Source: Coemansia sp. RSA 922 (lineage: Eukaryota; Kickxellomycota; Kickxellomycetes; Kickxellales; Kickxellaceae). From it: a stretch of DNA of 29,630 bases. Below the pieces are notes generated by a model. That model made no database searches and was not told the origin of the DNA. It saw only the letters and a program-made list of their open reading frames with translations. Below are positions 510 to 22,398 of the stretch, one piece after another. The translations under genes were made by a program, and so were the position numbers. The stretch spans positions 1 to 29,630 of the forward strand of contig JANBQS010000168.1 in the NCBI GenBank assembly GCA_027577415.1. Direction: 5' to 3'. Positions within the stretch are counted from its first letter, which is position 1; each line of letters begins with the position of its first letter.

Positions 510-1001
510 ATGAACTTTCTACCATCATTCAAACAATTTTCAGAAATTAGAAATCAAGTAGAAGCTCAAGGATCACAGATGTGTGTAATATTTGTCGTAC
601 ATGAGATCACTGTCGACCTTCCACCTTTGCGTTTTACTAAAGAGCTTTTAAATCTATCGACAGGTAAAAATGGATGTTTTCTAGCTGTCTACTCGGGCTC
701 AGAGGACCTTGATTCTCTGGTTGACTCCAGGTTTATACCAAGTCATATTGGTAAAGTAAAAAATGATGGTGTCAAAACCGCTACTCTCCATGTAAAAAGA
801 ACTGTTAGAACGTATTACTCTGACCCAAATATGATACTCGATATTATTATGGAAAGAATTGGCCATATTCAAGATAGGCTAGAGAATAGCAAGTGGAATA
901 GTGAATTGGAAATTCCATCACATCTTATCCAGAAATTATCAACGGAATTGCCCAAGATCCTTGCTAGTGAATGGTACTTGCAATACGTAAGATCGCAGTA
1001 A
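510..1001 (+). CDS. Lineage-specific small-protein family member 1 (163 aa)
   Basis: The product is 163 aa with no signal peptide, no membrane segment and no recognised domain. It is one of nine related copies in this window. The N-terminus is probably helical, then comes a strand starting at Cys25 (CVIFVVH), a helix at about 40-52, and a second strand from Cys56 (CFLAVYSG, with Tyr61 and Gly63). The first 80 residues are about 45% identical by eye to the product of the 3012 gene with no gaps, and both key cysteines have the same residue numbers, which supports this start codon. A C-terminal part of about 80 residues, mostly helical, is only loosely conserved. The gene has a class I promoter with TATA 145 nt upstream. 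Codon use is AT-rich, unlike the conserved genes nearby. Function is unknown. Confidence 0.75.
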   Translation: MNFLPSFKQFSEIRNQVEAQGSQMCVIFVVHEITVDLPPLRFTKELLNLSTGKNGCFLAVYSGSEDLDSLVDSRFIPSHIGKVKNDGVKTATLHVKRTVRTYYSDPNMILDIIMERIGHIQDRLENSKWNSELEIPSHLIQKLSTELPKILASEWYLQYVRSQ

Positions 1002-1320
1002 ATAAGTGGTTATAATAGAGCTAAATATAAAAAAGTTTATTTAATAGGACCACACTAGCTGTCCTACAGGTAGTTGTGTGCAAGATAGAGAAACAACGAC
1101 CCTCGTCTAGCTGGAAGCACACGTTTGCTCAGGGCTGGATACACCACTCAAGCTTGGTCGCCTACTATCCTATTTATTTTTTAAAGTATATAATAAACGA
1201 CCTTATATTCTCTACTTTCAAATTGCTATTGGGACTGGTAGTAGCAATATACTAAGTGGCTTGTAGCACTAGTCGTCATCCTCATCCAACCTTCCACTCC
1301 AAATCCAAGAAATTATAAGT
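1002..1320. other. Gene-free 3' flank of the 510 gene with a duplicated element
   Basis: This stretch is AT-rich and without a convincing ORF. GGGCTGGATACACCACT at 1132-1148 and about 70 bases after it resemble the region after the 3012 gene at 3458-3545. The 3' flank was therefore duplicated with the gene. An AATAAA-type signal lies in the tract near 1192. Nothing else was recognised. Confidence 0.5.
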
Positions 1321-1324
1321 ACAA

Positions 1325-1640
1325 GCAGAGCTAACTCTTATACACCTCTCCTGGTGACAAATGCCAGTCTGAGACGACACCTACATTTTGGCCCAAAGTT
1401 GAAGCAGAGAGGAACTTGTCTATCAACCACTACCCCCAAAGAAAAGAAAACAGGTTTTCCAACTTGGAGTCGTTATTGAAATTTGTCTTTGAGCAAGCGG
1501 TGTGGTTGCAGAGAGGGTAGTATAGTCTGGCTTTAAAAATTAGCGCCAAAGAGAATCAAGGTAGGTGCTTCCAGTCAACACCCCTTGTAAGAAGTGGGAG
1601 AAAGCTGCCTATATAAAATGAGAAAACGCAGGCAGCTACT
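1325..1640 (+). repeat. Class II promoter repeat, copy 1 (upstream of the broken gene at 1750)
   Basis: This region is homologous to 5880-6190. Shared stretches include CTCTCC(T/A)GGTG, TTGAAG(C/T)AGA, AAAGAAAACAGGTTT, a GCAAGCGG/GCGAGCGG stretch and TGCTTCCAGTCAAC. TTCCAGTCAAC is at 1569-1579, TATAAAA at 1612-1618 and GGCAGCTAC at 1631-1639. The region therefore still carries a complete-looking promoter although the gene below it is broken. Confidence 0.7.
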
Positions 1641-1749
1641 CCTCCCCCCTACATTTTACCTTATCAGCATTATATTCGTCTCACTAGCAATTAAGTTTTA
1701 ACGTTAAAGTATTGTTAACTGATGTGACAACTAGCAAAGTTAAGTCTAC

Positions 1750-2077
1750 ATGTTTACAATGATTGGGGTATGCTTAAAGCTGCTGTGTTTGATTCCAAGT
1801 CAAAAAAGTGTGTGTTTTCTTGGCACCAAATTTAGTGAGTAAAATCCCTAATGTTCCAGTATATCGATTGACACTTGCTAAGAAAGTTTTTATTCCAAAG
1901 TGCCTCTTTGTCATATACACAGGAAATGCTCCTGCCTTACTCAATATGTGTGATGCTACATTCGGGTACTAGTTGGTTGACATCTCTGCTACAACTGTTG
2001 AGGCTGTCATCCAAGAAATAAGTGACATGATTGCAATGGTAGAGCGAGATTACGTGCTCTATAATGCTGTTGAGTAG
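1750..2077 (+). pseudogene. Broken small-family copy (class II type)
   Basis: From 1808 the frame reads through a Cys-Val-Phe strand, a second Cys-x4-Tyr-Thr-Gly strand (CLFVIYTG) and a C-terminal helix to a TAG at 2075-2077. It is interrupted by an in-frame TAG at 1970-1972. The likely start at 1750 (or 1759) is in a different frame from the body; the switch fits a frameshift in the six-A run at 1802-1807. Spacing between the two Cys is 30 residues against 31 in the intact relatives. The best match is the 6272 gene, which has the same promoter class. The two lesions make it a pseudogene, unless recoding or sequencing error is involved. Confidence 0.65.
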
Positions 2078-2375
2078 AAAGAATAAAAATAGCATTCAAG
2101 TTCTGGATTCCCATGTAATAGGATGGGCTCCGACCAAAGTACCAGGTCCATTCAGCAAGGCTTGTCTCTTAAATAAACATGGTTATACGTTTACTTGCTA
2201 GCTTTTAGCCAAAGCATGCTCTTGGTAGAGGCTAACTCGTAGTTTTATTTTTTACTTTATGTTATTTTTAAATACCTGGTAAAGTAGATTGCTGCGATGA
2301 GAACGCAATTAATACATATAGAGAAAGCTGCAACAGTTATATTCAGGTGCCGCACGGGCTAACATTCAGTTTTCC
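2078..2375. other. Gene-free spacer
   Basis: AT-rich sequence between the broken copy and the next class I promoter repeat. I see no ORF with family features and no RNA gene. It contains a TTAAATAAAC stretch near 2168 that could serve as a poly(A) signal for the upstream transcript. Confidence 0.4.
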
Positions 2376-3000
2376 CGTGTCTAAACCCTGCATTCTCTGT
2401 GTCCGCAGTACGCTTTGTCCACCTCCCTCAAAAGCCGTTAAAAGAAAGCATTTTCGTCTTTCTAAAATAATGTCATTGGAAGTGGGCGGGCATGGTCGAG
2501 TGTAAAGAAAAAAGAAAATGCTTTGTTCACCAACAGCTTCTTTGAAAGTGCAAAGACTTTGTTCTTTGAAAAATGCTGTGTGTCAGCATGAGATGTCATT
2601 ACATCATTAGAAACCCCATTTGCGGTTTTCGTCCTCTCAAAAATAAGGGGGAAAAGAAGACATCAATCCATTAGCCACGAATGACACGGGTTTGGCGCTT
2701 CTTGGCTAATAGCAGTGGGGGAATGATTGCGTAATGTGATGCAACAATTAGAGAAGGTGGTTGTTTTCTTGCCTGGCACTTCTTTGAAAATATGGTGACA
2801 CCATTAAAAGAAAGCGTTTGCTTGGTTTTCGGCATTACTTGCGTTGGGAGCCGCAATGCCTCTACATTGCCATTGGATTTTCCTATAAAACGTGAGCTCG
2901 GGTGGTTGCCCTCTATACATCTTCTCTTTACCCTACTTCTACCTTTTCTCATTACACCTACTTTGCATTTTATTCAATCAAAAGAACAAACGTACGTCTG
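2376..3000 (+). repeat. Class I promoter repeat, copy A (serves the 3012 gene)
   Basis: This is the longest intact class I region. It is matched almost base for base by 4057-4671 and more loosely by 7120-7500. The core at about 2430-2610 is roughly 97% identical to copy B by eye. It carries GTCATTGGAAGTGGGCGGGC, then CTTTGTTCACCAACAGCTTCTTTGAAAG and CTTTGTTCTTTGAAAA boxes at about 2521-2571, then ATGTCATTACATCAT. Similarity continues to the TATA box and into the leader. Its length and conservation show that it duplicated together with the gene. Confidence 0.8.
2884..2913 (+). promoter_or_regulatory. Core promoter of the 3012 gene
   Basis: TATAAAA at 2884-2890 is followed 20 nt later by GGTTGCCCTC at 2904-2913, then a pyrimidine-rich leader up to the ATG at 3012. 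This places transcription start well after the GTG at 2892, so the upstream in-frame extension is not translated. Confidence 0.65.
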
Positions 3001-3011
3001 AACAATCAATA

Positions 3012-4056: not shown

Positions 4057-4671
4057 TGTGTCTAAATCTTGCATTCTCTGTGTCCACAGCACACTTTTGT
4101 CCATTTCCCCCAAAAGCCGTTAAAAGAAAGCATTTTCGTCTTTCTAAAATGATGTCATTGGAAGTGGGCGGGCATGGTCGAGTGTAAAGAAAAAAATGCT
4201 TTGCTCACCAATAGCTTCTTTGAAAGTGCAAAGACTTTGTTCTTTGAAAAATGCTGTGTGTCAGCATGAGCTGTCATTACATCATTAGCAACCCCAATTG
4301 CAGTTTTCGTCATCTCCAAAAAGAGGGAGAAAGGAGACTTCAATCCATTACCCGTTGAAGGCACAAGCTTGGTGCTGCTTACCTGTGAGGAAATGTTTGT
4401 GAAATAGGACGCAACAATTAGATAAAGTGATTATTTTCTTGTCTGGCACTCCTTTGAAAGCATGGGGACTTGCCGTTTGAGGCAACACCATGCTCTTTTT
4501 TCAAACTTGGTGGGAAGTGGGAAAGCTTCTGCATCGCTATTGAATTTTCCTATAAAACATGAGCCAGGGTGGTTATCCACTTTACACAATTATCTTAACC
4601 ATACATTTGCTTCTTCTCACCTTACCCACTCTGCCTTCTATTTAAGCACAAGAACCAACGCGCACCCGTGA
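4057..4671 (+). repeat. Class I promoter repeat, copy B (now separated from its gene)
   Basis: This is a near-identical duplicate of copy A (2376-3000), including the CTTTGTTC/CTTTGAAAG boxes at about 4198-4250, TATAAAA at 4551-4557 and GGTTATCCAC at 4571-4580. Similarity ends in the leader near 4671. The related coding fragment only resumes around 4888, so about 200 bases of unrelated AT-rich sequence separate promoter and gene body. That could be an insertion or a rearrangement breakpoint. Confidence 0.75.
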
Positions 4672-4887: not shown

Positions 4888-5229
4888 TCCCCTTTGCTTC
4901 TAAAACTTGATAAAAAGTTTTCTAACCTTGCTGAAATCAAGGCTTGTGTAGCGGAGCGCAACTCAAGTAGTTGCACAATATATGCCATGCGCAACAGAGT
5001 TGAAGACATTCCAGAAATCTAATTGAGTAATGAACTGCATAAACTATCTGAAAAGCAGGGAGGTTGGTTTTTAGCTCTCTGCACCGACACTGACGGTGTT
5101 TATTCTCAGTTAGACGGGATTTATGAAGTGGTAAATATTGATTCAACCACTCCAAAAGGAGTTTTGAATGAAACCTTGAAAGAATTTGATTTAATCCATG
5201 AATTGCTGAATGTAAATAATAAATGACCA
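4888..5229 (+). pseudogene. Broken small-family copy (class I type)
   Basis: The frame from 4888 to the TGA of about 5226-5228 aligns end to end with the N-terminal 80 residues of the 510 and 3012 products. It shows F-SNLAEIK in the first helix, then Cys-Thr-Ile-Tyr for the first strand, VEDIP, LSNELHKLSEKQGG in the helix and WFLALC for the second strand. Three defects are visible: no ATG at the aligned start, an in-frame TAA at 5020-5022, and loss of most of the C-terminal region. The second motif Cys is Trp and the motif Tyr is Cys. The intact-looking promoter is at 4551 but is displaced. Residual open frame from 5023 lacks an ATG. Confidence 0.65.
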
Positions 5230-5879
5230 TGTCTTTCAGGTTTGAAATATGGATGTGACGACTAGGAGCCCATTGATGGCGATGAGTCCAACATATAACG
5301 AGTGGAGCTAGAACCTTTGTACGGGCCAGCTCACAATGATATGTAGTACAGAATCAAGAGTGGGAACATTGATAAATGTTGGCGTTTTTATTGTTTTTAG
5401 TTTATTTTGTGAACGGCGAGGATGCATAAGAAGATAGTGCTCTGGCACTGTTTCTGTTGTTTCTTCACCGAGAAACAAAACCTCTAAAACTTATATTTCC
5501 CCTTTTCTATTCACTTACAACAGATAGCCTGTGGTTGCGAAGATGGGCCTAATATCGAAATTGCCAAACATCAGCATTATTATTTTTACCTCTTATAAGC
5601 AAGCATAGGTGTCCTAGTATTCTACTGCCTTTAGTTGACAGTGTTCACAATAAAATTTGCAATAATAAATATCCGTCCACCTTAAAAAGTACGCAGTGAC
5701 TAGAATGAGACAGAAAAATCCATAGCAAGGGAGCTGGTATGATGGTACTTGCATCGTTATTTTCAACCCAGAAAAGCTATTATGAACAAAAAATTATTGG
5801 ATATCGTGATACTGTGATATCTTCTTTCTGCATCATCTCCCTGTAGCAGGTTTAAGAAGGATTATATTCAAGTTTAGCT
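5230..5879. other. Gene-free spacer
   Basis: AT-rich, many stop codons in all frames. I recognise no family fragment, RNA gene or transposon end. It leads into the second class II promoter repeat. Confidence 0.4.
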
Positions 5880-6240
5880 CGCTCTTGATGCCCTCTCCAG
5901 GTGGCTAATACCAGTTTGATAATACAAAATTGAAGTAGAAAGGCCTTTGTCGACGAACTTTCTAAAGAAAACAGGTTTCCCAGCCTAAAGCTATAATTAG
6001 CAATTGCCATTGAGAAAGCAAAGCGAGCGGTTGGGGATGGCAGTGCAGTCTTGCTTTAAAAAATAAGCAGCAAAGAAAATCGAGCAGTGCTTCCAGTCAA
6101 CGCCCCATCATTCTTTAAAAGCTTTTTTGAAAGAGAATCGCCTCCCTCCCAAAAAAATTTCTATAAAAAAGGGGGAGAAAGGCAGGCACCTCTTGTTTTA
6201 TTTTTACCCCCCATATTCTCCCTTTTATTTTTATTCTCTA
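5880..6240 (+). repeat. Class II promoter repeat, copy 2 (serves the 6272 gene)
   Basis: Homologous to 1325-1640. It carries CTCTCCAGGTGGCTAATACCAGT, AAAGAAAACAGGTTT and TTCCAGTCAAC at 6091-6101, then TATAAAA at 6162-6168 and GGCACC at 6185-6190. The TTCCAGTCAAC box also occurs twice upstream of the 22081 gene, far away in the other block. The CTTTGTT/CTTTGAA pair of class I is absent. Confidence 0.7.
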
Positions 6241-6271
6241 ATCCAGGCCTATTCTCCTAAAAATTATAAGA

Positions 6272-6619
6272 ATGAGCCCTTTTCCAGTTATTAGCACCTT
6301 TGAGCAACTTGTGGGGTATCTATGTACCACATTTTTCCCGATATGTGTCATATTTACAGGTACTGATCCAAAGGGTACGTTTGGAAGTAATGTCTTGACA
6401 AATGAAAACCTGGATAGTATGTTGAATTTGGAGTACTGCAGCTTAGTGACTTACACCGGCTCTGTAGAAGGCTTGACCGGTTTGAGTATTCCAAAAGTTA
6501 CGACAAAAGTTATTGACATCCAGGAATATGAAAGTTGGACAAGTATTGTCTCCTCCGTAAGAGATTTTTATGGCAACCAACCAAAACCAGAAATAAAAGA
6601 AATACTCCAATTTAAGTGA
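6272..6619 (+). CDS. Lineage-specific small-protein family member 3 (115 aa, class II)
   Basis: The product is 115 aa. It keeps the family frame exactly: Cys25 at the first strand (CVIFTG), Cys56 and Tyr61-Thr-Gly63 at the second (CSLVTYTG). The helix before Cys25 (STFEQLVGYL) matches the FxxLxxLxxY pattern of the 22081 product. After the second strand comes a Leu-rich turn, then IPKVTTKVID, then a final helix. It lacks the long C-terminal extension of members 1 and 2, and its nearest relative is the broken copy at 1750, which has the same promoter class. TATA lies 110 nt upstream. No export signal is seen. Function unknown. Confidence 0.72.
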   Translation: MSPFPVISTFEQLVGYLCTTFFPICVIFTGTDPKGTFGSNVLTNENLDSMLNLEYCSLVTYTGSVEGLTGLSIPKVTTKVIDIQEYESWTSIVSSVRDFYGNQPKPEIKEILQFK

Positions 6620-7119
6620 ACAACTAAGTGTAGTTTTGAATTTAGCAAAAATTCGATAAAGGAAATATCTGATCAACAGGTCGCACTAAGGGGTATATTT
6701 GGAATCAAGAGGAGCTATGAGCTGAAATGTGAAGTGGCTACTTAATTTGCTCTCTAGTTTGTAGTTAAATTTCAAAGACGGGGCCGAATCATGTTCTGGA
6801 TATAGGTTTCTCAAGTAGTTTCTTTTATATATAATTTTTGTTTCTAAGAATTGTTATGACCAATTGTTTTAATGGCTATTTTTTCAGCTATTCATAAAAC
6901 CGACATGCTGAATGTTTACCTGTACTTGAACCTTGCTTTCTCCTGTACACAGTTGGTTTTCACTGCCCTCCTTTAACAGCAATTAGCAAGGGTGGCTTTC
7001 CTTTTTTACATAAGGAAGGGGGAAGCCGATGCCCTTGGAAGTGGGTGGGCATGGTGATTTTGTTCTTCAAAAATTGCTGTGTGGATGCCAAAATGTGCTG
7101 CCATGTCTACTTTTGCTAC
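6620..7119. other. Gene-free spacer with a fragment of the class I repeat
   Basis: Mostly AT-rich filler. At about 7035-7082 there is a short partial copy of the class I promoter (CTTGGAAGTGGGTGGGCATGG, then TTTTGTTCTTCAAAAATTGCTGTGTG). It lies just before the fuller copy C, so this promoter region was partly duplicated in tandem. No ORF with family features. Confidence 0.5.
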
Positions 7120-7500
7120 TCCAACAGCACGCTTTTGTCCCCTCCCTCAAAAGCCGTTAAAGGAAGCTTTTTCTTCTTTGTAAAATGATGTCATTGGAAG
7201 TGGGTGGGCATGGTCGAGTGTAAAGAAGAAAAGAGAATGCTTTGTACACCAACTGCTGCTTTGAAAGTGCAAAGGCTTTGTTCTTTGAAAAACTACTGTG
7301 TGTGTCATGAGCTTCAATTACATCATTGTCTACTTCAACTGCGGTTTTCGTCATTCCCAAAAATAAAGGGAAAAAAGGCGGCTTCAATACATTAGCCATC
7401 AAAGAAACAGGTTTGGCGCTTCTTTGCTAATAGCAGTGAGGGAATGTTTACGTCATTGGAAGCAAAAATAGAAAAAAAAATAGATTGTTTTCTTGCTTTG
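7120..7500 (+). repeat. Class I promoter repeat, copy C (serves the 7810 gene)
   Basis: Matches copies A and B over AAAAGCCGTTAAA, ATGATGTCATTGGAAGTGGG and the CTTTG(T/A)-CACCAACTGCTGCTTTGAAAGTGC and CTTTGTTCTTTGAAAA boxes (about 7240-7292). It continues through GGTTTGGCGCTTCTTTGCTAATAGCAGTG. It carries a TACGTCAT at 7449-7456 that copies A and B lack. It is more diverged than A and B are from each other, so it is an older copy. Confidence 0.75.
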
Positions 7501-7682
7501 TGGTCTTGTGACAAAAAGGCTTGAGGTAGGAGAAAACAAGTTTTTCTGTAAAAAGAGCAAAAGAGTAAATTCAACTGCGTAAGCGTCCAAAAATAAAGCA
7601 TTTCACTCGTTCCCCCTTTTTTTCTGCTGCTTACATCGAAAGTGGGGAAACATTCCTACCATTTTTTCTTTGCGGCCTATGC

Positions 7683-7713
7683 TATAAAAGAAGAGAAAAA
7701 TCCTGGCGCCCAT
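7683..7713 (+). promoter_or_regulatory. Core promoter of the 7810 gene
   Basis: TATAAAA at 7683-7689, then GGCGCCCAT at 7705-7713, 22 nt downstream. This matches 386-395 and 21979-21987 closely. A pyrimidine-rich leader of about 100 nt follows. Confidence 0.65.
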
Positions 7714-7809
7714 TTTTTCTTCTTCACCCTAACATATTTTCAGTTATTCTCTTTCTTATCCACATTTTTTTGACATTCTGGTTTAAGGAATTAAAACAAG
7801 TAATTTCCG

Positions 7810-8235
7810 ATGATTAAGATACCAGTGTTCGAAGAGATAGATCAGATTATAATGCATGCGAATCATATGGAATGCAGTAACTGCATAGTGTATATACGCC
7901 CTTATATTAAGCTAGATATTGATGTTTATTTGAAGAAGGAACCAGTTAATCAGCTTATGAAACAAATGAAGTGTTGTTTCGTTGTATATTCTGGTAAGCA
8001 ATATAGCGATCTTGCTAAAGGGGATTACGGTATCAATATGTATTTGGAGTATTTTAGCTACCAGTTTGCCGATTCTAATGGTCATTTGATACAAGAAGAT
8101 ATTATTAAGACAGTAGATTTTTACATGCGTGAGAAAACACTTCCACTAAGAAATCAAGATAGTCAATATTGGCATACGACTAGTTCATTGCCCTCAGTAT
8201 CAACCATAGGTGGGATAATAGATTTCGATAGTTAA
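7810..8235 (+). CDS. Lineage-specific small-protein family member 4 (141 aa)
   Basis: The product is 141 aa. Cys25 opens the first strand (CIVYIRP) and a Cys55-Cys56 pair opens the second (CCFVVYSG, Tyr60, Gly62). An extra Cys22 makes a CxxC with Cys25. The middle is more diverged than in members 1-3, and residues 64-85 hold an aromatic segment (YLEYFSYQF). The last 35 residues are Ser/Thr-rich and probably disordered. The ATG is supported by the conserved distance to Cys25 and by TATA at 7683. The gene converges on the M49-like gene, with only 63 bases between the two stops, which includes an AATAAA on the + strand. Function unknown. Confidence 0.7.
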   Translation: MIKIPVFEEIDQIIMHANHMECSNCIVYIRPYIKLDIDVYLKKEPVNQLMKQMKCCFVVYSGKQYSDLAKGDYGINMYLEYFSYQFADSNGHLIQEDIIKTVDFYMREKTLPLRNQDSQYWHTTSSLPSVSTIGGIIDFDS

Positions 8236-8298
8236 CATAAACATTGTTTTCTTGATTTATTTTTTGCAAGCACCTTAAATAAACATCAAGAAAAAAAA

Positions 8299-9999: not shown

Positions 10000-10094
10000 A
10001 CTCTTTTCAACAAAAAAACAAAAAAAAAAAAGTGATTGAAAGAGAAAAAGGTAAAACCTAATCCTCTCTCTCTGGAATGCGTGAGAACAAAAAC

Positions 10095-14321: not shown

Positions 14322-14466
14322 CAGTTACTATAAAAAAAGGTTATTTACGAAAGTGAGAAGAACGAAAAAAAAAAATAAAAGAAAATTAATGGAAAAAAGA
14401 AAGGTGGCTGCGCGTTGAACAACTCACAGTATATGCGTGGGAGAGAATGTTGTCGCCTTCTGATGT

Positions 14467-15345
14467 TCATTGTTCTTTTTTGAGTATCCCAAAGCAGCTG
14501 GGGCACCGCATAGCGTGGCCTCGCGTACGTCCAGACGCGACAAGTACGCGCTCAAAGCACAGCAGACACGTAATATCGCTAGCTGCCCCCGTCACTGGTG
14601 TCTGCGGCAGTCGAGGCTGCACCGGCGATAAGCTTGACGTGCACGATACAAAGCTACGCAAGTCCTCGACTGACGGCACCTCAGCAACAGACATTGATTC
14701 TTGGGCTTTGGCTGCCGCCGCACGCTGAGGCAATGTCACTGGCTGTGGGTCGCCAGTACGTGGCGAGTGGAGTGACTCTGAGGGTGTTAGGCTCAGTTGT
14801 GGACTAGCGAAAAGCGATATACCTGGTGACAGATCCGGCTCCTTTGGCTCCTCTTTCTCGGAGATACCAGTGACCGGTGAGTTCAGCTGAACCGCATGCC
14901 GTTCCTTGATGCTACCCAGGGACCGGTCCAATGTAGTGTGGCGTGGTTTTAAGCGTACAACAGCGTCGGCTGGGTTCAGTGTCAGTCCTAAACCTATTAT
15001 CGCTCTTGTACGCGAACCACCTACAGGCAATAAGGTCCCTATTGCCGCACTGTGTCGCCGCCCGCCAACTGGCATACGGGGTGGCCGTACAGAGTCTGTT
15101 TTTCCTCCACTATCAGTTACTACGCGTCGAGGCCGAGCCACTGCGAACCGCCGAGAAGCCGGTATATACAATGCCGGGTGCTCCTGTGGTCTGCCTGTGG
15201 CAAACGCTGTGGCGAACGGCAGTACTCGTGTCGTCTGGCTGCTACACGAACTAGTGTTTGTGCTTAGACTACTCTCACGTCTATGCGCCTTTGTCACATC
15301 CATGTGTCGGCTCGGCAACCCTGCTATTGAACCAACACCAGCCAT
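14467..15345 (-). CDS. Protein of unknown function with C-terminal CxxC...CxxC site
   Basis: The product is 292 aa starting at the Met at 15345. The same frame stays open to 15513 but that extension is a Lys/Arg-rich run likely to be 5' leader. Most of the protein is Ser/Pro/Arg-rich and probably disordered. The C-terminus has a compact zinc-binding candidate, Cys260-x2-Cys263 and Cys281-x2-Cys284 (CLLC and CPSC), the spacing of a zinc ribbon or half of a RING. It is divergent from the bZIP gene across an 816-bp intergenic region and lies directly upstream of the RING-less B-box gene on the same strand. I do not recognise a named orthologue. Confidence 0.55.
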   Translation of the reverse strand: MAGVGSIAGLPSRHMDVTKAHRRESSLSTNTSSCSSQTTRVLPFATAFATGRPQEHPALYIPASRRFAVARPRRVVTDSGGKTDSVRPPRMPVGGRRHSAAIGTLLPVGGSRTRAIIGLGLTLNPADAVVRLKPRHTTLDRSLGSIKERHAVQLNSPVTGISEKEEPKEPDLSPGISLFASPQLSLTPSESLHSPRTGDPQPVTLPQRAAAAKAQESMSVAEVPSVEDLRSFVSCTSSLSPVQPRLPQTPVTGAASDITCLLCFERVLVASGRTRGHAMRCPSCFGILKKEQ

Positions 15346-16161
15346 ACTAATAATGATGAAATTTTTTTTGTTTGTGTTAAAATGGAGAGAGAAAAAAAGT
15401 AGGTAAGCAAAAAACATTTGGACACCCTTCCCTCGCTCCCCTTTCCTTTTTCTCTCTTTTTTCTTTCCTTGCCTCAACCTAAAGGCAAGTTGGGGGTGTA
15501 CTCCCCACTCCAAGTGCAGCGCAGTAGCAAGAGCCTACAGCTCCCTAACAAGTATAGCTACGCAGTAACTACGTTAAACACATGTTTGCCTACAGACTGG
15601 ATAGCGTACTTTAGCGTCGTAAATCACTCTTGGTATCGATCACAAATCTACCACATGTGCAATGACGACATCGGCGCTCTTTGCCAGCCACGTGAATCCA
15701 AGGTCTGCCCTTTTTGCGTTTTGGAAAACTTTCTGCACGTCAAGTAAAAAAAATGTACTTTTTTTCCCCAAAAAGTGCCAGTGTTCTCTTTTCGTACTAA
15801 ACACTTTTTTTTTCTAACAATCCTCGTGTGGTTAGAAGGAGCCCTTTTAAAAGCTTTGTAATGTGGTGGAAACCCCAAGGAGACTTTAGCAATCCTTTGC
15901 TTGTCTTTTAGGAAAAGAACACCCTTTTTACTCGTGGCCAAATAAAGTCTCGCCCACCCCCTCCCTCAGCATCCAACTAGCGTCATAGCTTTATTTTTTT
16001 CTTTCTTCTTTCCAAAGTATCCGTTTTTTTGTCTTTTTTTCGTCATAGCCCCACTTTTCTAGCTTGTGTTCAGTCTTTTATTTTTCCTTCAGCCTGCTCA
16101 GGTGTGGACTATTATTTTCTCTGAAGCCGCCAATTTCTTTTTTTTTTCTCTTTTTTTTTAA
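15346..16161. promoter_or_regulatory. Shared upstream region of the zinc-ribbon and bZIP genes
   Basis: This divergent intergenic region is T-rich toward the bZIP start. CGTCATAGC occurs twice, at 15981-15989 and 16041-16049, 60 bases apart. CGTCA is the CRE half-site recognised by ATF/CREB bZIP proteins, so autoregulation is possible. The stretch 15490-15747 has an open + frame ending in a Cys-rich segment (CNDDIGALC...CPFC) that looks a little like coding sequence, but it has no convincing start or relatives. Confidence 0.4.
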
Positions 16162-17652
16162 ATGGAGACACGCAGACACAAGCCCTTGGATTTGGCTCGT
16201 GAGCCAAACCCCTTTGAGCACAGTTTTTCGTTAGTACAGTCAGAGGATGTAGCAGCAACCAAGGCACTCGAAGATACCAAGGTTTACAGTCGTACAAACA
16301 ATAGCCCCAAAACGAGTCCTTCGCATCCCAGCATAACACCCGTTGGGAGGAGTCCACTAGGTTCTTTACTGTCTTCTAGAAACTCGACGCCCTTTTCGCA
16401 AGCCGCTGCCTCGCCCTCGGGAGGCAAGGGTAACCAACTGACTCCCTCGATCAAACTGCCGCCGGTAACAGCTATTAGTGGGCCTGTTGACCCCGCACAT
16501 ATGCCGATGGTCTGGGGCGCAGAGTCCCTGCGCAGCGGACCTCTGTCCCCCGCCATGCTGGGTGGGCCGACAGCTACCAGCGGAACACCAAAGCCTCTGG
16601 GTACCTCGACGCCCGGAGTACCACGTTTGGGAATGACTGACCCTGCCTTGCACACGGGTCTGACTCCCTATATAGCAGGCGAGCCCCAGCCTACGAGAGT
16701 CTTTGGTCCTATTCGTATGCCTCAGGCGGTAGTCACTCCTATGCTTCAAGCCGCGATGCAAGCTACTGTCAATGGTCAGGATATCACGTCGACGCCAGGC
16801 GGTACCTTGCGTGTAGCTCCACCACGCCAACCAATCTCGGACTCCAGGAAACGTAGTCCCTCTGTCACTACACCGCTTGCCCCTTCACAGTCCGAACTGC
16901 GGTCGATGCCTCGAACCTATGGTCCAGAGCCGCCTGCTTTCCCGTCACCCAGACTCCCACCTCCACGGGCCAAGCGCGCAAGACAAGACAGTGTAGATGA
17001 TGTGAGCAATCCGACTGTAATTACGAGACGCAAAAACAGACGCAAAACCCAGGACAGCAACCAAGTCTCGCGTGACTCGTCTATAGCTCCGACCTTTTTA
17101 TTCGCCAACGACAGCGACACAGAAGCCAACGACTTGGACCCCTACGCTACACATGGTGCAGACGGACAGCCATTGACAGAAGAAGAAAAGCGGAAACAGT
17201 TTTTGGAACGAAACCGTATTGCGGCTCTCAAATGCCGTCAACGCAAAAAGAAACAACTGCAGGAGCTACAGGATCGTCACGACTATATGGTACAGGAGAA
17301 CGAGCGGTTACGAAAGGAGTATATGGAGATGAGAGAAATCGCCCTACAAGCTCGTGCCATGTTGGCTGCTCATGCCGACTGCCCTGTTGCTATTGCTAAT
17401 GGCGTACATGGTCTGGATTCGTTGCCTAGTGGTGTCTCTTTTCATTCGCTCGTACCTAGTAATACCGTGGAGGCGGAGTACGCACAGAAAATTATTGCTG
17501 CTATTCCGCCTACTTCCAATGGTATCCCCGTGCATTCTATGATGATGCCTGCTATGCCTGAACGCGGCGGTCGAAGGTCCGTTTCTCACTCCCATAGACA
17601 TATGATGTCTGAGCAAAACTATGAACACGCCCCTCATATGTGGCGAGATTGA
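16162..17652 (+). CDS. Atf1/AtfA-type bZIP transcription factor
   Basis: The product is 496 aa, a nuclear DNA-binding regulator of the ATF/CREB class. The N-terminus contains EPNPFEHSF (residues about 13-21), the hallmark of the Aft1 osmotic-stress domain of fungal Atf1/AtfA proteins. Residues 40-330 are rich in Ser-Pro and Thr-Pro, typical targets of stress-activated MAP kinases. The basic region starts at about residue 342 (ERNRIAALKCRQRKKKQ) and leads into a leucine zipper to about 395. The region after it, with ADCPVAI, also fits this class. Family members bind TGACGT-type sites and control stress, sporulation and secondary responses. The ATG is preceded by a T-rich leader, and two CGTCA half-sites lie upstream. 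No introns. Confidence 0.88.
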   Translation: METRRHKPLDLAREPNPFEHSFSLVQSEDVAATKALEDTKVYSRTNNSPKTSPSHPSITPVGRSPLGSLLSSRNSTPFSQAAASPSGGKGNQLTPSIKLPPVTAISGPVDPAHMPMVWGAESLRSGPLSPAMLGGPTATSGTPKPLGTSTPGVPRLGMTDPALHTGLTPYIAGEPQPTRVFGPIRMPQAVVTPMLQAAMQATVNGQDITSTPGGTLRVAPPRQPISDSRKRSPSVTTPLAPSQSELRSMPRTYGPEPPAFPSPRLPPPRAKRARQDSVDDVSNPTVITRRKNRRKTQDSNQVSRDSSIAPTFLFANDSDTEANDLDPYATHGADGQPLTEEEKRKQFLERNRIAALKCRQRKKKQLQELQDRHDYMVQENERLRKEYMEMREIALQARAMLAAHADCPVAIANGVHGLDSLPSGVSFHSLVPSNTVEAEYAQKIIAAIPPTSNGIPVHSMMMPAMPERGGRRSVSHSHRHMMSEQNYEHAPHMWRD

Positions 17653-17880
17653 GGTGTTTCCCCTCTTTTTTTTTCTTCTCGTTTCTCTTTTTTTCTTCTC
17701 CTTCTGTATTGGCGAGAGGGATATGTGTATAAATTTTTTTGAATATACTAAAAAAAACTACTTGTTTATAATTTACTTGGATAGTCCCTAGCTTGAAGCT
17801 AAACTGTTCTCATGAACAAGATACTTGTCGCCTGTGAAATGCACTACCACCCGTTCGTAGTTGGATAAAAGTGAACGGCA
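17653..17880. other. 3' flank of the bZIP gene
   Basis: Pyrimidine-rich 3' UTR followed by AT-rich sequence with ATATACTAAAAAA near 17742, a possible poly(A) region. No ORF or RNA gene recognised. It leads into the class I boxes of the next small-family gene. Confidence 0.4.
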
Positions 17881-18079
17881 GGAAAAAAAGCAGTTTCTTT
17901 GAACACCAACTGTTTTCTTTGAAGAGTTGGAGACCCTTGTGCTTTGAAGCCTTTAAAAGGAATTGTCGGCTGAGCTTTCACCACGCTTGCTGCGGCTCTC
18001 ACCACCCTTGAAGACGGATGAAAAGAGGGAGACTTGCTCGCTAAAAGAGGGAATGGAAAAGGGGGATGTGGGTGCCTAC
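17881..18079 (+). promoter_or_regulatory. Class I upstream region of the 18164 gene
   Basis: TTTCTTTGAACACCAACTG, TTTCTTTGAAGAG and GCTTTGAAGCCTTTAAAAGG (17892-17960) correspond to the CTTTGTTCACCAAC / CTTTGAAAG / CTTTGTTCTTTGAA boxes of the first block. The region is homologous along most of its length to 20461-20674. The downstream element GGTGCCTAC lies at 18071-18079, but at the expected distance upstream there is only TGGAAAA rather than TATAAAA, so this core promoter is degenerate. Confidence 0.6.
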
Positions 18080-18163
18080 ATTTTTCCTCCTTTACTCTTG
18101 TCCTCACTTTTACATTTCTCAAAGCATTTTCTACGCACTATTAAAAATCACCAGAAACAACAC

Positions 18164-18391
18164 ATGTCTGAGCAACAAGAATCGACACTTGTATTGGTGT
18201 TTCATAACATTGATGACCTTAGAGAATATGTAACGAAACACGCTTCCAAGAAGTGTATAACAGTGATTCTACTTAGTGACAACCCCTATTATGTAATAAA
18301 GCGTTACAGACGCCTATGCAAGTTCAAGCGTATGTTTAACCTCAAGTGTAGGTGTCCACATTTAAAGATAAAATTGGCCAAACAGAACTAA
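18164..18391 (+). CDS. Lineage-specific small-protein family member 5 (75 aa, short form)
   Basis: The product is 75 aa, from the ATG at 18164 that aligns with the start region of the 20755 gene. The frame is open further upstream to 17963, but that part is promoter. It contains the N-terminal helix (VFHNIDDLREYV), the strand beginning at Cys31 (CITVILLS) and a Cys-rich segment, Cys52 then KRM then Cys62-x-Cys64-Pro. The 20755 product has the same segment with Cys55, Cys65 and Cys67. It stops where the relative continues for another 80 residues with the second strand motif. Nothing homologous follows the stop, so it is a short form or a truncated copy. Function unknown. Confidence 0.6.
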   Translation: MSEQQESTLVLVFHNIDDLREYVTKHASKKCITVILLSDNPYYVIKRYRRLCKFKRMFNLKCRCPHLKIKLAKQN

Positions 18392-18684
18392 AGAGAAAAC
18401 AAGTACATTACGTACGTCATGAAAGAATAGCTATTTAAACCGCGCCACTTTTTGTGACCTGGTGGCTCCAATAACTACTACTCTTTAAGATAGAGATTGT
18501 GTTCGCTCAATTCGGGGGAGAACAAAAAATTATGTGCCTTGCTTCACTGACACAGTTCCTCCCGACTCAGCGACAAAGCCTATATAGAGATATGTTTAAA
18601 GTTAATCATAATAAACTTGATAAAGTTAACTATAGCCCAAGATAAACCCTCTCAGCTACTATTTTGATAGACGTGATGTTGGCC
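18392..18684. other. Gene-free spacer
   Basis: AT-rich 3' flank of the 18164 gene, convergent with the retroelement-like ORF. TACGTCAT at 18413-18420 and an AATAAAC at about 18609 are the only sites noted. No similarity to the missing second half of the family protein was found in any frame by eye. Confidence 0.4.
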
Positions 18685-20085
18685 CTATCTTTCCGGCGGG
18701 GGATGTCCTTCGACCATTGACCAGACATTTTTAACCAGCCTTTCTCTATTAATCTTCGTGCGCTGTGATATACCTCCGTCTAAATGCCAAGCGTTTAAGT
18801 CCGCGTCGGACCTACTACAGGGATCTAGACCACGCTCTATGCACCATGTGGCCCAATATCTCCACATCCTGTCGTATTCAATGTTGGTATCTCTGTTAAC
18901 CTGGTTGAAGTAAGCGGCAATTGCTGGCTCTGACTTGCCCTGGCGCAAGAGTGCTGTACGGACAACGTCTCGGCGACTGAGTGATGGGCCAAGATTCTCC
19001 ACTACTACTGTTGCCTCAGACACTGGAGAGCAGTCAGTGTCATTTACGCTCTCAAATGCCGTGCTACCAGTGTCAGACTCTCCGACTAAAGAGGCAGCAA
19101 CAGGAGATTCGCCTTCACCCCTGCAAGACCGTCGATTGCCTGTGGTCTTAGATATGCGGGCTAACAAGCGAGCAGATGAGCGAGTACCCACTGGCGGATC
19201 GCCATGTGGTGCTGTAACAGCGTTGTTTTGGATTGTGTCGCAGCCTCGTGCCTGCCGCCGTGGCAGCCCTGAGGTCTTCGAGCGTCCGAGGTCGCGGCGA
19301 TACGGGTGGCTACGCTTGTTTCCGACAGGTTCATTGCCTCGCCTCTCCCATCTACGTGTATTTGGACCACTATTCTGCCTGGAGCGCTGGTGATGATCGA
19401 TACACTCAGAAACTGGCTCCAACTCTTGGCCTAGACCATGGGCGCCTCTCTGGGCGTCGATCCTTTCAGCGGCCAAACCATTAATCTCGGCCCTGTGGTG
19501 CGCAAGCGTATCAGTGAGCGTTGCGCAAAGCGTGGCAAATATGTCGCTTGCTTGACTTGTCAACCTTCTATCGACCTGCGCACTGCTCAGCGCGATGCGT
19601 AAAAGTTCGACTCCGTAAGCTGTCATGGCCGCCACTTGACTATATGCCTCGTCTACCGCGAGCTTGTTATCCATCTCGGAGGCTTGCGTGTTGGTATTGG
19701 TAGCCTTTTTGCTAGTGATAAGTCTCTTTGGCGAATATATTGATCCTTTAGGCGAGTACTGCTTGCGGAGATCGGCCCATGTCGACTTTTTAGGGCCAAC
19801 ACCCAGCCCAATCTCGTTTAGGCGCTTACTGGTCATCGACTTTACGATATCTCTGGTATTGTCGTCAGTTCCGTTATTGCCACACCCGTTTAGAGCCGAC
19901 TCATCGTGATCATGGCCGACGTGTGCCGCGTTTCCTCCTTCCGTGCAAGTAGAGCGGCTCCTCAGATCCTGTATGGCCTTTTCTGTTGCCTCCACGCGAG
20001 CAAACAAAGTACTAAGCGCGCGATGGGATGCTACGAGCTTTTCAACCGTGTTAAAGATCTGCTCGACTTCTTCTCCGTCCATCAT
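18685..20085 (-). CDS. Retroelement-derived ORF: Gag-like part plus tyrosine-recombinase N-terminal domain
   Basis: The product is 466 aa. The C-terminal 90 residues (about 370-460) have the pattern RQG-(x)n-NIEYDRMWRYWATWCIERGLDP followed by a helical Leu/Trp segment, typical of the SAM-like core-binding domain ahead of the catalytic part of tyrosine recombinases in DIRS/Ngaro/Crypton elements. The Arg-His-x-x-Arg-Tyr catalytic domain is absent; the frame stops at GHPPPER. Residues 1-30 are a short coiled coil and 145-210 a helical region reminiscent of the Gag-like first ORF of DIRS-type elements. The 210-360 middle is low complexity. No reverse transcriptase is present. It lies between two small-family paralogues. 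It may be a decayed element or a captured gene. Domain calls are by eye. Confidence 0.5.
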   Translation of the reverse strand: MMDGEEVEQIFNTVEKLVASHRALSTLFARVEATEKAIQDLRSRSTCTEGGNAAHVGHDHDESALNGCGNNGTDDNTRDIVKSMTSKRLNEIGLGVGPKKSTWADLRKQYSPKGSIYSPKRLITSKKATNTNTQASEMDNKLAVDEAYSQVAAMTAYGVELLRIALSSAQVDRRLTSQASDIFATLCATLTDTLAHHRAEINGLAAERIDAQRGAHGLGQELEPVSECIDHHQRSRQNSGPNTRRWERRGNEPVGNKRSHPYRRDLGRSKTSGLPRRQARGCDTIQNNAVTAPHGDPPVGTRSSARLLARISKTTGNRRSCRGEGESPVAASLVGESDTGSTAFESVNDTDCSPVSEATVVVENLGPSLSRRDVVRTALLRQGKSEPAIAAYFNQVNRDTNIEYDRMWRYWATWCIERGLDPCSRSDADLNAWHLDGGISQRTKINRERLVKNVWSMVEGHPPPER

Positions 20086-20460
20086 AGACTATGCGAGATA
20101 AAAGGTCTACAAAAGTGTTGTTGATAAATGCGCGCAAAAAAAAGGGTAGTCGATGAAAAGAAAACAAAATTTTTTTTTCGCGCCACAGACTTGAGAAAGA
20201 GCCAACCCAAAAGTGTATATGCGACTAGACGACCCTTTCTTCAAGATAATCAACATGAGCCGAACCACAAGCTTAACTGAGCCGTCCTTCATGCTATTGT
20301 TGTAACACAGTTTCGTCAAAATCCAGGTGTTCAATCCATGCTCTCGTTAGTGCAATACCAATATTGTGCACATTTTTCCTGGACACCAGCTTCAGATATT
20401 GCTTGTATGGGCATACACTTGGCTAGGCGCTCACTACTGAATGTGCGTTGTTGGGCACAT
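20086..20460. other. Upstream region of the retroelement-like ORF, otherwise empty
   Basis: AT-rich near the ORF start, then mixed composition. I saw no long terminal repeats, no split direct repeats and no target-site duplications that would define element ends. No other gene recognised. Confidence 0.35.
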
Positions 20461-20674
20461 AAGAATGCTGGAAAAGAAATGCTTTGTGCACCAAGTGCTC
20501 CTTTGAAGGGCTGGAGACTTTGTGTCTTTGAAGCCTTTAAAAGGACCTTTGGCCGAGCTTTCACAGCCCCCTGCTGCGGCCCTCCCTGCGGCTCTCGCTG
20601 CCTTTCTACGATTGGAAAAAGAAGACTTGCTCGCCAGAAGAGCTTGTAAAAGAAAGGGGCATGTGGGCGCCTAA
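20461..20674 (+). promoter_or_regulatory. Class I upstream region and core promoter of the 20755 gene
   Basis: GCTTTGTGCACCAAGTGCTCCTTTGAAGG and ACTTTGTGTCTTTGAAGCC (about 20481-20533) match the class I boxes. They are followed by CCTTTAAAAGG, CCGAGCTTTCAC and GACTTGCTCGC shared with 17881-18079. TGTAAAA at 20645-20651 replaces TATAAAA, and GGGCGCCTAA follows at 20665-20674. Boxes lie about 130 nt from the core promoter here, against 250-400 nt in the first block. Confidence 0.65.
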
Positions 20675-20754
20675 ATCTTTCTCACTTTGCTTGCCCTAAA
20701 AATTTCTTTTATTTTTTTTCTTAAAGTATTTCTATTAGTTGTAGTTAAAATAGC

Positions 20755-21210
20755 ATGAAACGACAATTGCCTGAACAACCAATACCAACACACATATCAG
20801 TTTTTGATAATGTGGGCGAGCTTAGAAAATACGTAATGCAATTCCCATACGGGGGGTGTATGGTATTGGCTATGCACAACCACATGTCCATATATCAGTA
20901 TACGCATAGGGACAAGTGTGTGTTAAAACGCATGCTTGGAGTCGAGTGTGGGTGCCCACGTACACTAAAAGAAGAGTTTGAATCAATCCTGATACCTTCG
21001 TCCACAACACCTGCTCCCAATGTCACAGCAGCATTTGGTCTTGCAGTGTATTCTGGCAAGGATGCCTACACACTCACAAGAATGTTTGATTTCCGTGAGC
21101 TAGGTTATGTTTTGCCTATTAAGCACAAAAATTCTGAAGAAACTCGCAAATTCCTAACCGATCTTCTCAATGCCTTTAGAATATATCGGTGGAAATCAGC
21201 TAGCATATAG
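20755..21210 (+). CDS. Lineage-specific small-protein family member 6 (151 aa)
   Basis: The product is 151 aa. It has an N-terminal helix (VFDNVGELRKYV), a strand at Cys35 (CMVLAMHN) and a Cys-rich insert, Cys55-x3-KRM then Cys65-x-Cys67-Pro. A long helical linker follows, then the second family strand (AFGLAVYSG, residues 93-101, without the Cys) and a C-terminal helix (about 127-143). The insert is shared only with the 18164 product and could bind a metal, but only three Cys are conserved in it. The start is supported by the helix-to-Cys spacing shared with 18164. Class I promoter. No export signal. Function unknown. Confidence 0.7.
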   Translation: MKRQLPEQPIPTHISVFDNVGELRKYVMQFPYGGCMVLAMHNHMSIYQYTHRDKCVLKRMLGVECGCPRTLKEEFESILIPSSTTPAPNVTAAFGLAVYSGKDAYTLTRMFDFRELGYVLPIKHKNSEETRKFLTDLLNAFRIYRWKSASI

Positions 21211-21680
21211 CAACCCCAATGCAGTTCTTTATTTGAGAAGGTGCATCAAAAGTACACTTCTTTCAAAAGTCTAGTAAACGTTTTACCTACTAACAATACC
21301 AAGTGCTCATGCTTACAAAGGTAAAAAAGAACACATGCTAAGGATAATAGACTAAGGTTGTGCATTATGTTCATAGCGTCAGAGCGTTTTCGTGCATGTT
21401 CCTGAGCAGCGTGACGGCCCACATAACCAAGGTAGCAGCTCGCACGTGGATAATCCCGCTGACCAATATATTTCAGCTGAAAAGAACTCCCACAGCCCAT
21501 CGGACGCCGTGCTAGTGGAGAAGCGCCCACGTGTAAGCAGGCACGGCTTGGCGACACCAAGAGTCTTGAGCAAGGCGTAAATTTGGCCGTAGAAGAAAGC
21601 CGTCAAAAAGAGTTATACGCAGCAGTTCGCAGTGCTCTGAGAATAGCACCATTGCCCTCACTTTTGTATATGCTATCAAA
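21211..21680. other. Intergenic stretch with a coding-like GC-richer island
   Basis: The 3' flank of the 20755 gene is followed, at about 21370-21690, by a GC-richer patch. One + frame (21392-21580) is open and runs into a second + frame (to about 21688) that ends with EESRQKELYAAVRSALRIAP. A single frameshift near 21550 would join the two. There is no promoter, no start context and no recognised family. It may be a relic of an unidentified gene. Confidence 0.3.
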
Positions 21681-21863
21681 CAATTGTTAACATGGTTTTA
21701 TTACCTGCAAACTCCTTCGCAGCCTTGATCTGGAAAAGCAGTGCATAATCCGCTTTTTTGCTTGCTCGCAGAGACTTCCTATTGTCAAAAAACAGAAATA
21801 TCGTAAAAGGAAGCTTTGAAACCCCTTGTTCAAGCAGACTTTTGTAGGGAATCCCCCAAAGAA

Positions 21864-21987
21864 AGTCAACGGTATGCTTCCAGTCAACGGTATTCTTCCA
21901 GTCAACACTCTCATTTCAAAACTTTTTTGCAAGGGGAGCTACCCCCACAATTTTTGCTATAAACTGGCGGGCAGGGTAGGCGCCCAC
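21864..21987 (+). promoter_or_regulatory. Class II promoter of the 22081 gene with tandem AGTCAAC repeats
   Basis: The 18-bp unit AGTCAACGGTAT(G/T)CTTCC occurs twice in tandem at 21864-21899 and begins a third time (AGTCAAC, 21900-21906). This yields two full TTCCAGTCAAC boxes, at 21878-21888 and 21896-21906; the other class II genes have one. TATAAAC at 21958-21964 and GGCGCCCAC at 21979-21987 follow. The box is the diagnostic element of this promoter class. Confidence 0.65.
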
Positions 21988-22080
21988 TTTTTGCGTTTTT
22001 CTCTTTTCTATCACTCTATTCTTCTCAAATATATCCAACAGCCTAGTTTTTTTTTATAATTCGAAAACCACTCTACGAAA

Positions 22081-22398
22081 ATGCAGCCACCGACCAATAC
22101 TGAGGCATTTACTGACTTGAAAAAACTAGCGGAATATGTAAAGAGTACTTGGTGTAATGTTTGCGCAGTGATTAGAGGAACTGAGCACCCCATTGACTCT
22201 GCATCTATAAATTTGATTAGGTCATCAGAAGTTGGTGTGCTCGGCAACTATGTTCATGTCGTCTATAATGAACCAGGATACGTCAGCGACGCTAGCATGA
22301 ATATTGCTATGCCAGTGATTGTGAACAATATTTTAACTAAATCTGCGGCCGATTTAGCTAAAGAAATTAAAGATCGTCTAACTGTCAAGAATGAGTGA
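22081..22398 (+). CDS. Lineage-specific small-protein family member 7 (105 aa, class II)
   Basis: The product is 105 aa, the shortest class II type. It has the helix FTDLKKLAEYV, a strand at Cys28 (CAVIRG) with Cys25 three residues before it, a middle helix, a second strand NYVHVVYNEP (Tyr62, no Cys), then MP-containing IAMPVIVNNI and a final helix SAADLAKEIKDRL. The helix-strand-helix-strand-helix-strand-helix order is clearest in this member. ATG is 123 nt after the TATA element. It is separated by about 16 kb and several conserved genes from the class II copies of the first block. Function unknown. Confidence 0.7.
   Translation: MQPPTNTEAFTDLKKLAEYVKSTWCNVCAVIRGTEHPIDSASINLIRSSEVGVLGNYVHVVYNEPGYVSDASMNIAMPVIVNNILTKSAADLAKEIKDRLTVKNE

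Follow-up and report, generated by a model that had tools for sequence, protein, structure and literature searches.

A probable recognition or conflict gene family in tandem arrays of a Coemansia genome

Seven small open reading frames (ORFs) on one stretch of Coemansia DNA, i.e. the 29,630 nucleotides analysed here and called the window, are members of a family that we regard, with a probability of about 0.6, as restricted to its lineage, engaged in recognition or conflict and subject to diversifying selection. The evidence comprises the common descent of its members, the allelic divergence of gene 7810 (genes are named after their first position), the turnover of copies between haplotypes, and recombination within shared promoters.

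Family membership, residue pattern and searches for relatives

The window ORFs and their relatives share common descent. In leave-relatives-out profile tests, for which every sequence with at least 38% identity to the target was taken out of the training set beforehand, the seven window ORFs gave E values of 8e-18 to 3e-4, versus 0.05-0.25 for the best shuffled sequence, i.e. a family profile, suggested as a check in the preliminary description, groups them all. Altogether, E ≤3.5e-4 was reached by 24 of 26 sequences, the seven window ORFs among them, and the best among 2080 shuffled sequences ranged from E 0.018 to 0.28. The two sequences that fail, C215_5585 and C599_8786, are doubtful as members and were excluded from the counts; they lie in the same cluster, carry TATA[AT]A at -119 and -116, respectively, and show a divergence peak of 22%. 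Gene 22081 also matched contig C110 weakly (E 0.055, 25%), which was judged to be due to chance.

All nine copies of the preliminary description, two of them broken and the others ORFs of 75-163 aa, were found at their positions (Table 1). Seven of them had been called intact and seven ORFs are indeed present, but the copy at 18164, whose start was inferred from an alignment and which is most likely the true 75-aa form of the ORF listed from 18053, stops before the second strand and is thus a truncated gene. Moreover, the family extends beyond the window: copies form tandem arrays, and members were found on seven contigs of the genome, the assembly of which carries both haplotypes. None of three telomere-repeat patterns was found in these seven contigs.

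Table 1. Family copies and upstream elements in the window
Feature	Position	Strand	Basis or remark
Family member, 163 aa	510..1001	+	ORF, profile test
Broken copy, remnant of second strand onward, frame interrupted	1835..2077	+	DNA match to C236:5755-6079
Upstream box, gene 3012	2377..3011	+	Alignment
TATAAAA, -128 of gene 3012	2884..2890	+	Motif scan
Family member, 137 aa	3012..3425	+	ORF, profile test
Upstream box ahead of broken copy 4906	4058..4660	+	Alignment
Broken copy, one in-frame stop	4906..5223	+	Corresponding C74 copy (about 36829-37158) open
TATAAAA, -110 of gene 6272	6162..6168	+	Motif scan
Family member, 115 aa	6272..6619	+	ORF, profile test
Upstream box, gene 7810	7125..7496	+	Alignment
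TATAAAA, -127 of gene 7810	7683..7689	+	Motif scan
Family member, 141 aa	7810..8235	+	ORF, profile test
Promoter region, 18164 copy	17886..18163	+	Contains the recombination breakpoint, about 17964-18142
Truncated recombinant family member, 75 aa	18164..18391	+	ORF listed from 18053
Upstream region, gene 20755	20482..20754	+	Related to that of 18164
Family member, 151 aa, with insertion of about 35 residues	20755..21210	+	ORF, profile test
Family member, 105 aa	22081..22398	+	ORF, profile test

The members are single uninterrupted ORFs. Genes 510, 3012, 6272 and 7810 have a Cys at residue 25 and, 31 residues on, the motif C-x4-Y-x-G, as described before; this two-Cys pattern is, however, not fixed. 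In the family-wide alignment the first Cys is present in 20 of 24 members. Of the 23 members with a residue at the second position, 12 have the second Cys (4/7 in the window), the Tyr (21/23) and the Gly (20/23) being steadier. Two AlphaFold predictions, both of low confidence (pLDDT 52 and 48; window-only alignments of five rows), agree over the first four elements. Judged from simple hydropathy alone, no clear transmembrane segment is present, the highest 19-residue mean being 1.68 (gene 6272) and 23 of the 26 ORFs staying below 1.5, and the hydrophobic stretch of the main subgroup coincides with the first strand near residues 24-30. The proteins, about 100-160 aa in length, are probably intracellular and of the alpha/beta type, and the weak model suggests that the conserved core (helix, Cys-strand, helix, Tyr-x-Gly strand, strand, helix) may serve as scaffold for a recognition surface formed by variable helices and loops.

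That the family is not a known one, as the preliminary description had stated, is in line with all searches made, and none of them assigned the copies to an already named family. A family-alignment search of 5.8 billion proteins yielded 643 candidates, none with E ≤1, and a search of the protein collection with gene 510 yielded nine candidates without any family member; this protein search rests on five-residue words that two proteins have in common (at most 100), so that relatives may be missed. As the collection contains the proteins of near-identical strains, the family ORFs appear to have been missed by gene calling in the records of those strains. Neither Pfam (21 members) nor NCBIfam gave a credible match, the best match of a PDB profile search was no better than E 0.26, and only scattered single-member matches (E 0.003-0.2) were obtained in Pfam, NCBIfam, the PDB sequences and the protein collection. 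Likewise, none of 21 members matched HET, NACHT or any other known incompatibility domain credibly in Pfam; HET (PF06985) had no match in the whole genome, but the control genomes were silent as well, so that its absence from the genome is not implied.

A highly diverged offshoot of the L7Ae/L30e RNA-binding fold (PF01248) would be one possible origin: in a fold search the model of 3012, itself of low confidence, matched many ribosomal and L7Ae-type chains, some of the ribosomal ones being taken here as eL8 or eL30, and the order of its elements is similar. This lead was not supported by three further tests, among them the Pfam search and a profile comparison (hhalign score 1.9, E 0.8, against three sequences of the same genome and five others) that revealed no relation, and such an origin is very improbable. 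When bacterial and archaeal genomes were scanned for relatives of L7Ae, one locus was returned.

Allelic divergence and turnover of copies

Allelic synteny covers window positions 4913-8622 (contig C74) and 17272-29630 (contig C244). The end of an M49 gene, the end of a bZIP gene, an MFS gene and two further ORFs differ by 1.9-3.2% between the haplotypes, and the dN/dS values of neighbours that served as controls are 0.08 (MFS), 0.16 (M49 end), 0.36 (ORF 18685) and 0.55 (bZIP end).

The allelic pair of gene 7810 is under diversifying selection. The gene differs from its allele by 18%, with 20% change at nonsynonymous sites (69.5/341), 9.5% at synonymous sites (7.5/79) and 4.6% in the upstream flank (37/802). 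Nonsynonymous change exceeds that of the flank (p=1.3e-15), more modestly that of the gene's own synonymous sites (p=0.037) and, clearly, that of the synonymous sites of three neighbouring genes (37/555; p=1.2e-9), also if ORF 18685 is added to this baseline (73/883; p=1.4e-8). The dN/dS ratio is 2.36 (bootstrap 1.18-5.83) and ranges from 2.36 to 3.04 by three methods, i.e. NG86 in two implementations, LWL85 and ML. Changed residues are found at 3 of 25 strand positions versus 41 of 90 elsewhere (p=0.002), the strands having been set by hand from a low-confidence model.

The other pairs differ in their behaviour. Gene 6272 deviates from its allele by 11% and in its flank by 5.4%, with a dN/dS of 1.06 (1.1-1.9 by other methods), its excess weakening to p=0.031 once ORF 18685 joins the baseline. 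Gene 20755 is under purifying selection (dN/dS 0.14, 0.02-0.44; 0.14-0.21 across methods) and is thus coding. No divergence peak is seen for 20755 (2.6% allelic difference) and C215_7403 (4.3%; dN/dS 0.66 against C599_10624); gene 510 differs by 13.5% and its upstream flank almost equally (12.6% at 200-399), and the 18164 copy differs from its allele at 11 of 225 sites (pairwise count). The dN/dS comparison proposed in the preliminary description hence returned diversifying selection at one locus and purifying selection at another. The interval lies wholly above 1 for the 7810 pair only, out of 14 pairs (13 between members, one between C215_5585 and C599_8786), i.e. a dN/dS excess is found in one of the five member allelic pairs (6272, 7810, 18164, 20755 and C215_7403), and several pairs have values of 0.6-1.1. 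These values, together with the two broken and the one truncated copy in the window and the stop-bearing or frame-broken copies on contigs C244, C471 and C215, might reflect ordinary decay, i.e. relaxed constraint on duplicated, non-essential genes without any role in recognition. Relaxed constraint, however, should not raise the nonsynonymous change of 7810 above that of flanks and neighbours' synonymous sites, and 20755 is constrained; we therefore consider decay improbable as an explanation of the family.

Copy number is unequal between the haplotypes, and loss, truncation and insertion differ between them, so that the loss and truncation reported earlier hold and depend on the haplotype. 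The allele of 510 on C74 is interrupted by a 1595-bp insertion containing an RNase H domain, and the counterpart of 22081 on C244 was matched as two overlapping pieces, resembling a frameshift. The turnover of copies would also suit a defence family, i.e. factors inside the cell that engage in an arms race with mobile elements or mycoviruses by binding their proteins, as would diversifying selection on predicted non-core elements, and the retroelement-like insertion within one allele indicates that such elements are present. Yet, a single insertion is no evidence of a target, and the family searches detected neither a nuclease nor an RNA-binding or any other effector domain; a defence role appears rather unlikely.

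Shared promoters and recombination

In 15 of 26 copies (4/7 in the window) the motif TATAAA[AG] is located 110-145 bp ahead of the start, as compared to 5% in shuffled sequence; the exact TATA is missing in the other 11, among them 18164 and 20755. Upstream regions align within subgroups, with 20755/18164 and 7403/14776 having upstream regions of their own; about 60 bases ahead of 20755 are also related to the upstream regions of 3012 and 7810. The upstream box of 3012 has matches at 10 genomic places including itself (one of just 68 bases), all on family contigs. The conserved regulation proposed earlier holds insofar as promoters can be aligned within subgroups, but between the 7810 alleles the promoter region evolves at roughly the rate of the remaining flanking DNA (about 5%), and only in comparisons of paralogues is it conspicuously conserved.

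Copy 18164 arose by recombination, its breakpoint lying in the promoter shared by two copies that stand in tandem on the other haplotype. Promoter and coding sequence are discordant in other copies as well, e.g. 3012 has its closest promoter in C471_8881 and its closest coding sequence in C471_12849. Related promoters would hold the copies in one expression programme and, at the same time, would provide recombination sites at which variants may be swapped, deleted or duplicated.

Possible function and known systems

The earlier view that the genes are of a kind involved in conflict or self-recognition holds in part: related regulation, fast protein change (7810), loss and truncation agree with it, and the fixed two-Cys pattern was not supported. 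A recognition or conflict family of this kind would recognise something that is itself changing. The likeliest single use, tentative as this assignment is, would be that Coemansia individuals or nuclei tell self from non-self, followed by defence against mobile or viral parasites and then by drive or a poison-antidote system. It is doubtful, but conceivable, that the family is the first case in Zoopagomycota (Kickxellomycotina) of a hypervariable system for self/non-self recognition, residing in promoter-linked tandem arrays of orphan genes for small proteins, with balancing and diversifying selection maintaining distinct alleles that are reshuffled where promoter cassettes are common to several copies. 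No member was linked here to a cell-death partner.

To our knowledge, fungal allorecognition and gene conflict are known almost only from Dikarya. In the open-access literature nothing was found that joins Coemansia with heterokaryon incompatibility, early-diverging fungi with allorecognition or Kickxellales with meiotic drive, nothing relevant on a Coemansia gene family and positive selection and, in titles and abstracts, nothing relevant on Zoopagomycota and allorecognition. The family provides named loci to test whether early-diverging fungi own a recognition system. At one locus of an apparently unannotated family coding change outruns synonymous and flanking change, and small ORFs under selection exist outside the searched protein records.

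The msg genes of Pneumocystis form antigen-type arrays in which a common upstream sequence is joined by recombination to different coding parts. The Coemansia arrays likewise have common upstream sequence recombined onto different coding sequences, but nothing points to expression from one site, most copies have their own promoter-like region, and no signal peptide is evident from hydropathy.

A second system to be compared is wtf of Schizosaccharomyces pombe, and the Coemansia genes might accordingly be a selfish drive family, i.e. poison-antidote spore killers working in the same way. Both families are multicopy and fast-changing, have no obvious relatives beyond their lineage, vary in copy number between genomes and undergo recombination between copies that takes in promoters (PMC6526906). 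However, wtf genes mostly have 5-6 exons, alternate transcripts and predicted membrane proteins as products (PMC6526906), whereas the Coemansia genes are single open frames with apparently soluble products that lack a clear transmembrane segment, making drive an improbable use.

The het genes of Dikarya are the counterpart of self/non-self recognition, the use that we rank first. In contrast to them, the Coemansia proteins are small, have no recognised domain and no relatives found outside their own genome, the family is known from its sequence rather than from an incompatibility reaction, and the divergence peak is seen in some members only. The two resemble each other in their alleles: in Aspergillus fumigatus hetA-hetE, allelic difference is limited to the gene and a narrow flank, as it is here for 7810 and 6272, and in both systems null or broken alleles exist next to coding ones (PMC11138114).

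Family membership and conserved residues

Genome searches with seven member proteins as queries identified relatives on seven contigs, i.e. the window (C168), C74, C244, C215, C599, C471 and C236, the resulting family counts being lower bounds; three of the queries contributed no further contig, and a match on C110 was set aside as weak (E 0.055). Twenty-six ORFs from the seven contigs entered a profile test, in which sequences with ≥38% identity to the target were left out of training and the database comprised 2106 sequences. Here, 24 of the 26 were recovered at E ≤3.5e-4, the best shuffled sequence reaching 0.018-0.28, and all seven window ORFs gave values from 8e-18 to 3e-4. The first Cys is retained in 20/24 members, the second Cys in 12/23, the Tyr in 21/23 and the Gly in 20/23, i.e. 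the fixed two-cysteine pattern of the preliminary description fits some members, but not the whole family.

Gene 510 as single query had nine word-sharing candidates and no match in the protein collection. A 21-member alignment searched against 5.8 billion proteins, among them those of near-identical Coemansia strains, yielded 643 candidates and no match at E ≤1; as this search depends on shared five-residue words, distant relatives could escape it. Pfam, NCBIfam and PDB sequences gave isolated, mutually inconsistent matches only. A 115-117-aa ORF inside the family cluster of C215 and C599 (table) has a TATA[AT]A motif at -119/-116, shows 22% allelic difference and fails the profile test; it may be a very distant family member.

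Haplotypes and neighbourhood of the copies

The window is a complete contig of a 20.4-Mb genome in 960 contigs. The assembly contains both haplotypes, as window positions 4913-8622 align to the end of C74 (90% identity) and 17272-29630 to C244 (92-96%), and C215 and C599 form a second allelic pair. Both C74 and C244 end at the highly conserved central part of the window (8622-17272), which suggests that this stretch was collapsed from two haplotypes during assembly. A diploid or hybrid strain, a pair of nuclei or a mixed culture could each account for the two haplotypes, and the sequence comparisons are valid under each. The M49-type protein matches proteins of Coemansia sp. S100, RSA 2337, S16 and RSA 455 at 98-100% identity, the alignments covering 92-95% of its length, with S100 and RSA 455 each being listed with two versions; this places the host in Coemansia (Kickxellomycotina).

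Measured in 200-bp steps, divergence from C74 is 3.5-6.5% over 5600-7800 (interior of 6272 excepted) and 2.5-3.6% at 8200-8600, but rises to 16-22% inside 7810 and, within 6272, to 15% over its second half. The upstream flank of 510 shows 12.6% allelic difference, and a divergence peak is absent at 20755 (2.6%) and C215_7403 (4.3%).

A 466-aa ORF (ORF 18685) located between family copies, without match in a Pfam search, has a C-terminal part that we take to resemble the N-terminal region of tyrosine recombinases. A dispersed repeat at the end of 22081, 72-80% identical between most of its places, may be a short non-autonomous element. The genes 510, 3012, 6272, 7810, 20755 and 22081 have a third-position GC of 0.32-0.39 vs. 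0.50-0.66 in four neighbour genes.

Coordinates of features in the window and on other contigs of the assembly
Feature	Window	Other contigs
Upstream box, ~600 bp	2377-3011	
M49-type gene	8299-9999	
ORF 18685, 466 aa	18685-20085 (-)	C244:20912-22312
Dispersed repeat, ~210 bp	22367-22580	C236:16636-16858; C236:22098-22304; C74:23649-23862; C244:about 17987-18204
ORF, 115-117 aa		C215:5585-5932 (-); C599:8786-9139 (-)
Insertion, 1595 bp		C74:34308-35902

Promoters, exchange and damage

The upstream box is matched at 10 places, its own position counted and one match spanning just 68 bases; every place lies on a family contig. The box is unlikely to be coding, because nine aligned copies include gaps whose lengths are not multiples of three. 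TATAAA[AG] lies 110-145 bp 5' of the start codon in 15/26 copies (24 members, a stop-bearing and a truncated copy, alleles counted separately), 4/7 in the window, vs. 5% of shuffled upstream sequences. The looser TATA[AT]A occurs at -123 in 22081, and neither form was found upstream of 18164 and 20755. The upstream region of 7810 differs by only ~5% between alleles, and thus the coding part is, by this comparison, the fast-changing one. Among paralogues, promoters are much closer than synonymous sites, e.g. 7810 and C471_10951 share 83% identity over 250 bp upstream at a dS of 0.48.

The nearest promoter and the nearest coding part frequently belong to different copies. Identity between C471_12849 and C236_8179 is 87% in the upstream region, 38% at the residue level and 35% in the downstream region, and 3012 is closest to C471_8881 in its promoter and to C471_12849 in its coding part. 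The clearest case is 18164, which upstream of about 17964 matches the C244 copy at 23374 (the first three blocks giving 42/43, 50/51 and 50/53); from 18142 onward it matches the copy at 22611 (58/60, 57/60, 58/60). As C244 has both copies, the window haplotype looks like the product of unequal exchange within the promoter that removed one gene, the direction being deduced.

Damage also differs between haplotypes. Gene 510 is open in the window, its C74 allele being split by an insertion that contains an RNase H domain and comes with a perfect 20-bp duplication; for the copy at 4906, the window has a broken version and C74 an open one; and 22081 is open in the window, its C244 counterpart matching as two overlapping pieces.

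Selection and possible function

The dN/dS comparison of copies proposed in the preliminary description gave different answers for different genes, synonymous counts in the allelic comparisons being small. With nonsynonymous changes at 4/353 and synonymous changes at 8/100 sites (dN/dS 0.14, 0.02-0.44), 20755 is, by its substitutions, under purifying selection and thus a constrained protein gene. For 7810, 69.5/341 (0.204) nonsynonymous and 7.5/79 (0.095) synonymous changes stand against 37/802 (0.046) in the upstream flank (7000-7809), and dN/dS is 2.36 (bootstrap 1.18-5.83), 2.56 in another implementation of the same method and 2.83 and 3.04 in further estimates, pointing to diversifying selection. 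The nonsynonymous excess holds against the flank (Fisher p=1.3e-15), its own synonymous sites (p=0.037) and those of three neighbour genes (p=1.2e-9; 1.4e-8 with ORF 18685 added). For 6272, dN/dS is near or above 1 (1.06-1.89), with an excess over the neighbours' synonymous sites (p=0.0037; 0.031 with ORF 18685). Among 14 allelic and paralogous pairs, one of them formed by the two doubtful ORFs, only 7810 has an interval entirely above 1; neighbour controls gave 0.08 (MFS), 0.16 (M49 end), 0.36 (ORF 18685, between haplotypes) and 0.55 (bZIP end).

Structure predictions were poor (pLDDT 51.7 and 48.1), and both models agree on helix, Cys-strand, helix and Tyr-x-Gly strand. A fold search leaned towards L7Ae-like chains, a lead that three follow-ups did not support. 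Changed residues of 7810 occupy 3/25 strand positions vs. 41/90 elsewhere (p=0.002; positions assigned using a weak model together with the shared pattern). As the 21-member alignment has no invariant column and the Tyr as sole column at 90%, the evidence does not suggest an enzyme. Most economically, the family would consist of binding proteins in which a constant core is combined with a variable face. Their partner might be a drive partner, or a protein belonging either to another individual (allorecognition) or to a parasite. Among these we favour allorecognition, because allelic divergence is narrow, as PMC11138114 reports for het genes of Aspergillus. The wtf family (PMC6526906) likewise changes in copy number and recombines between its copies with promoters included, but its membrane and exon structure is absent here.
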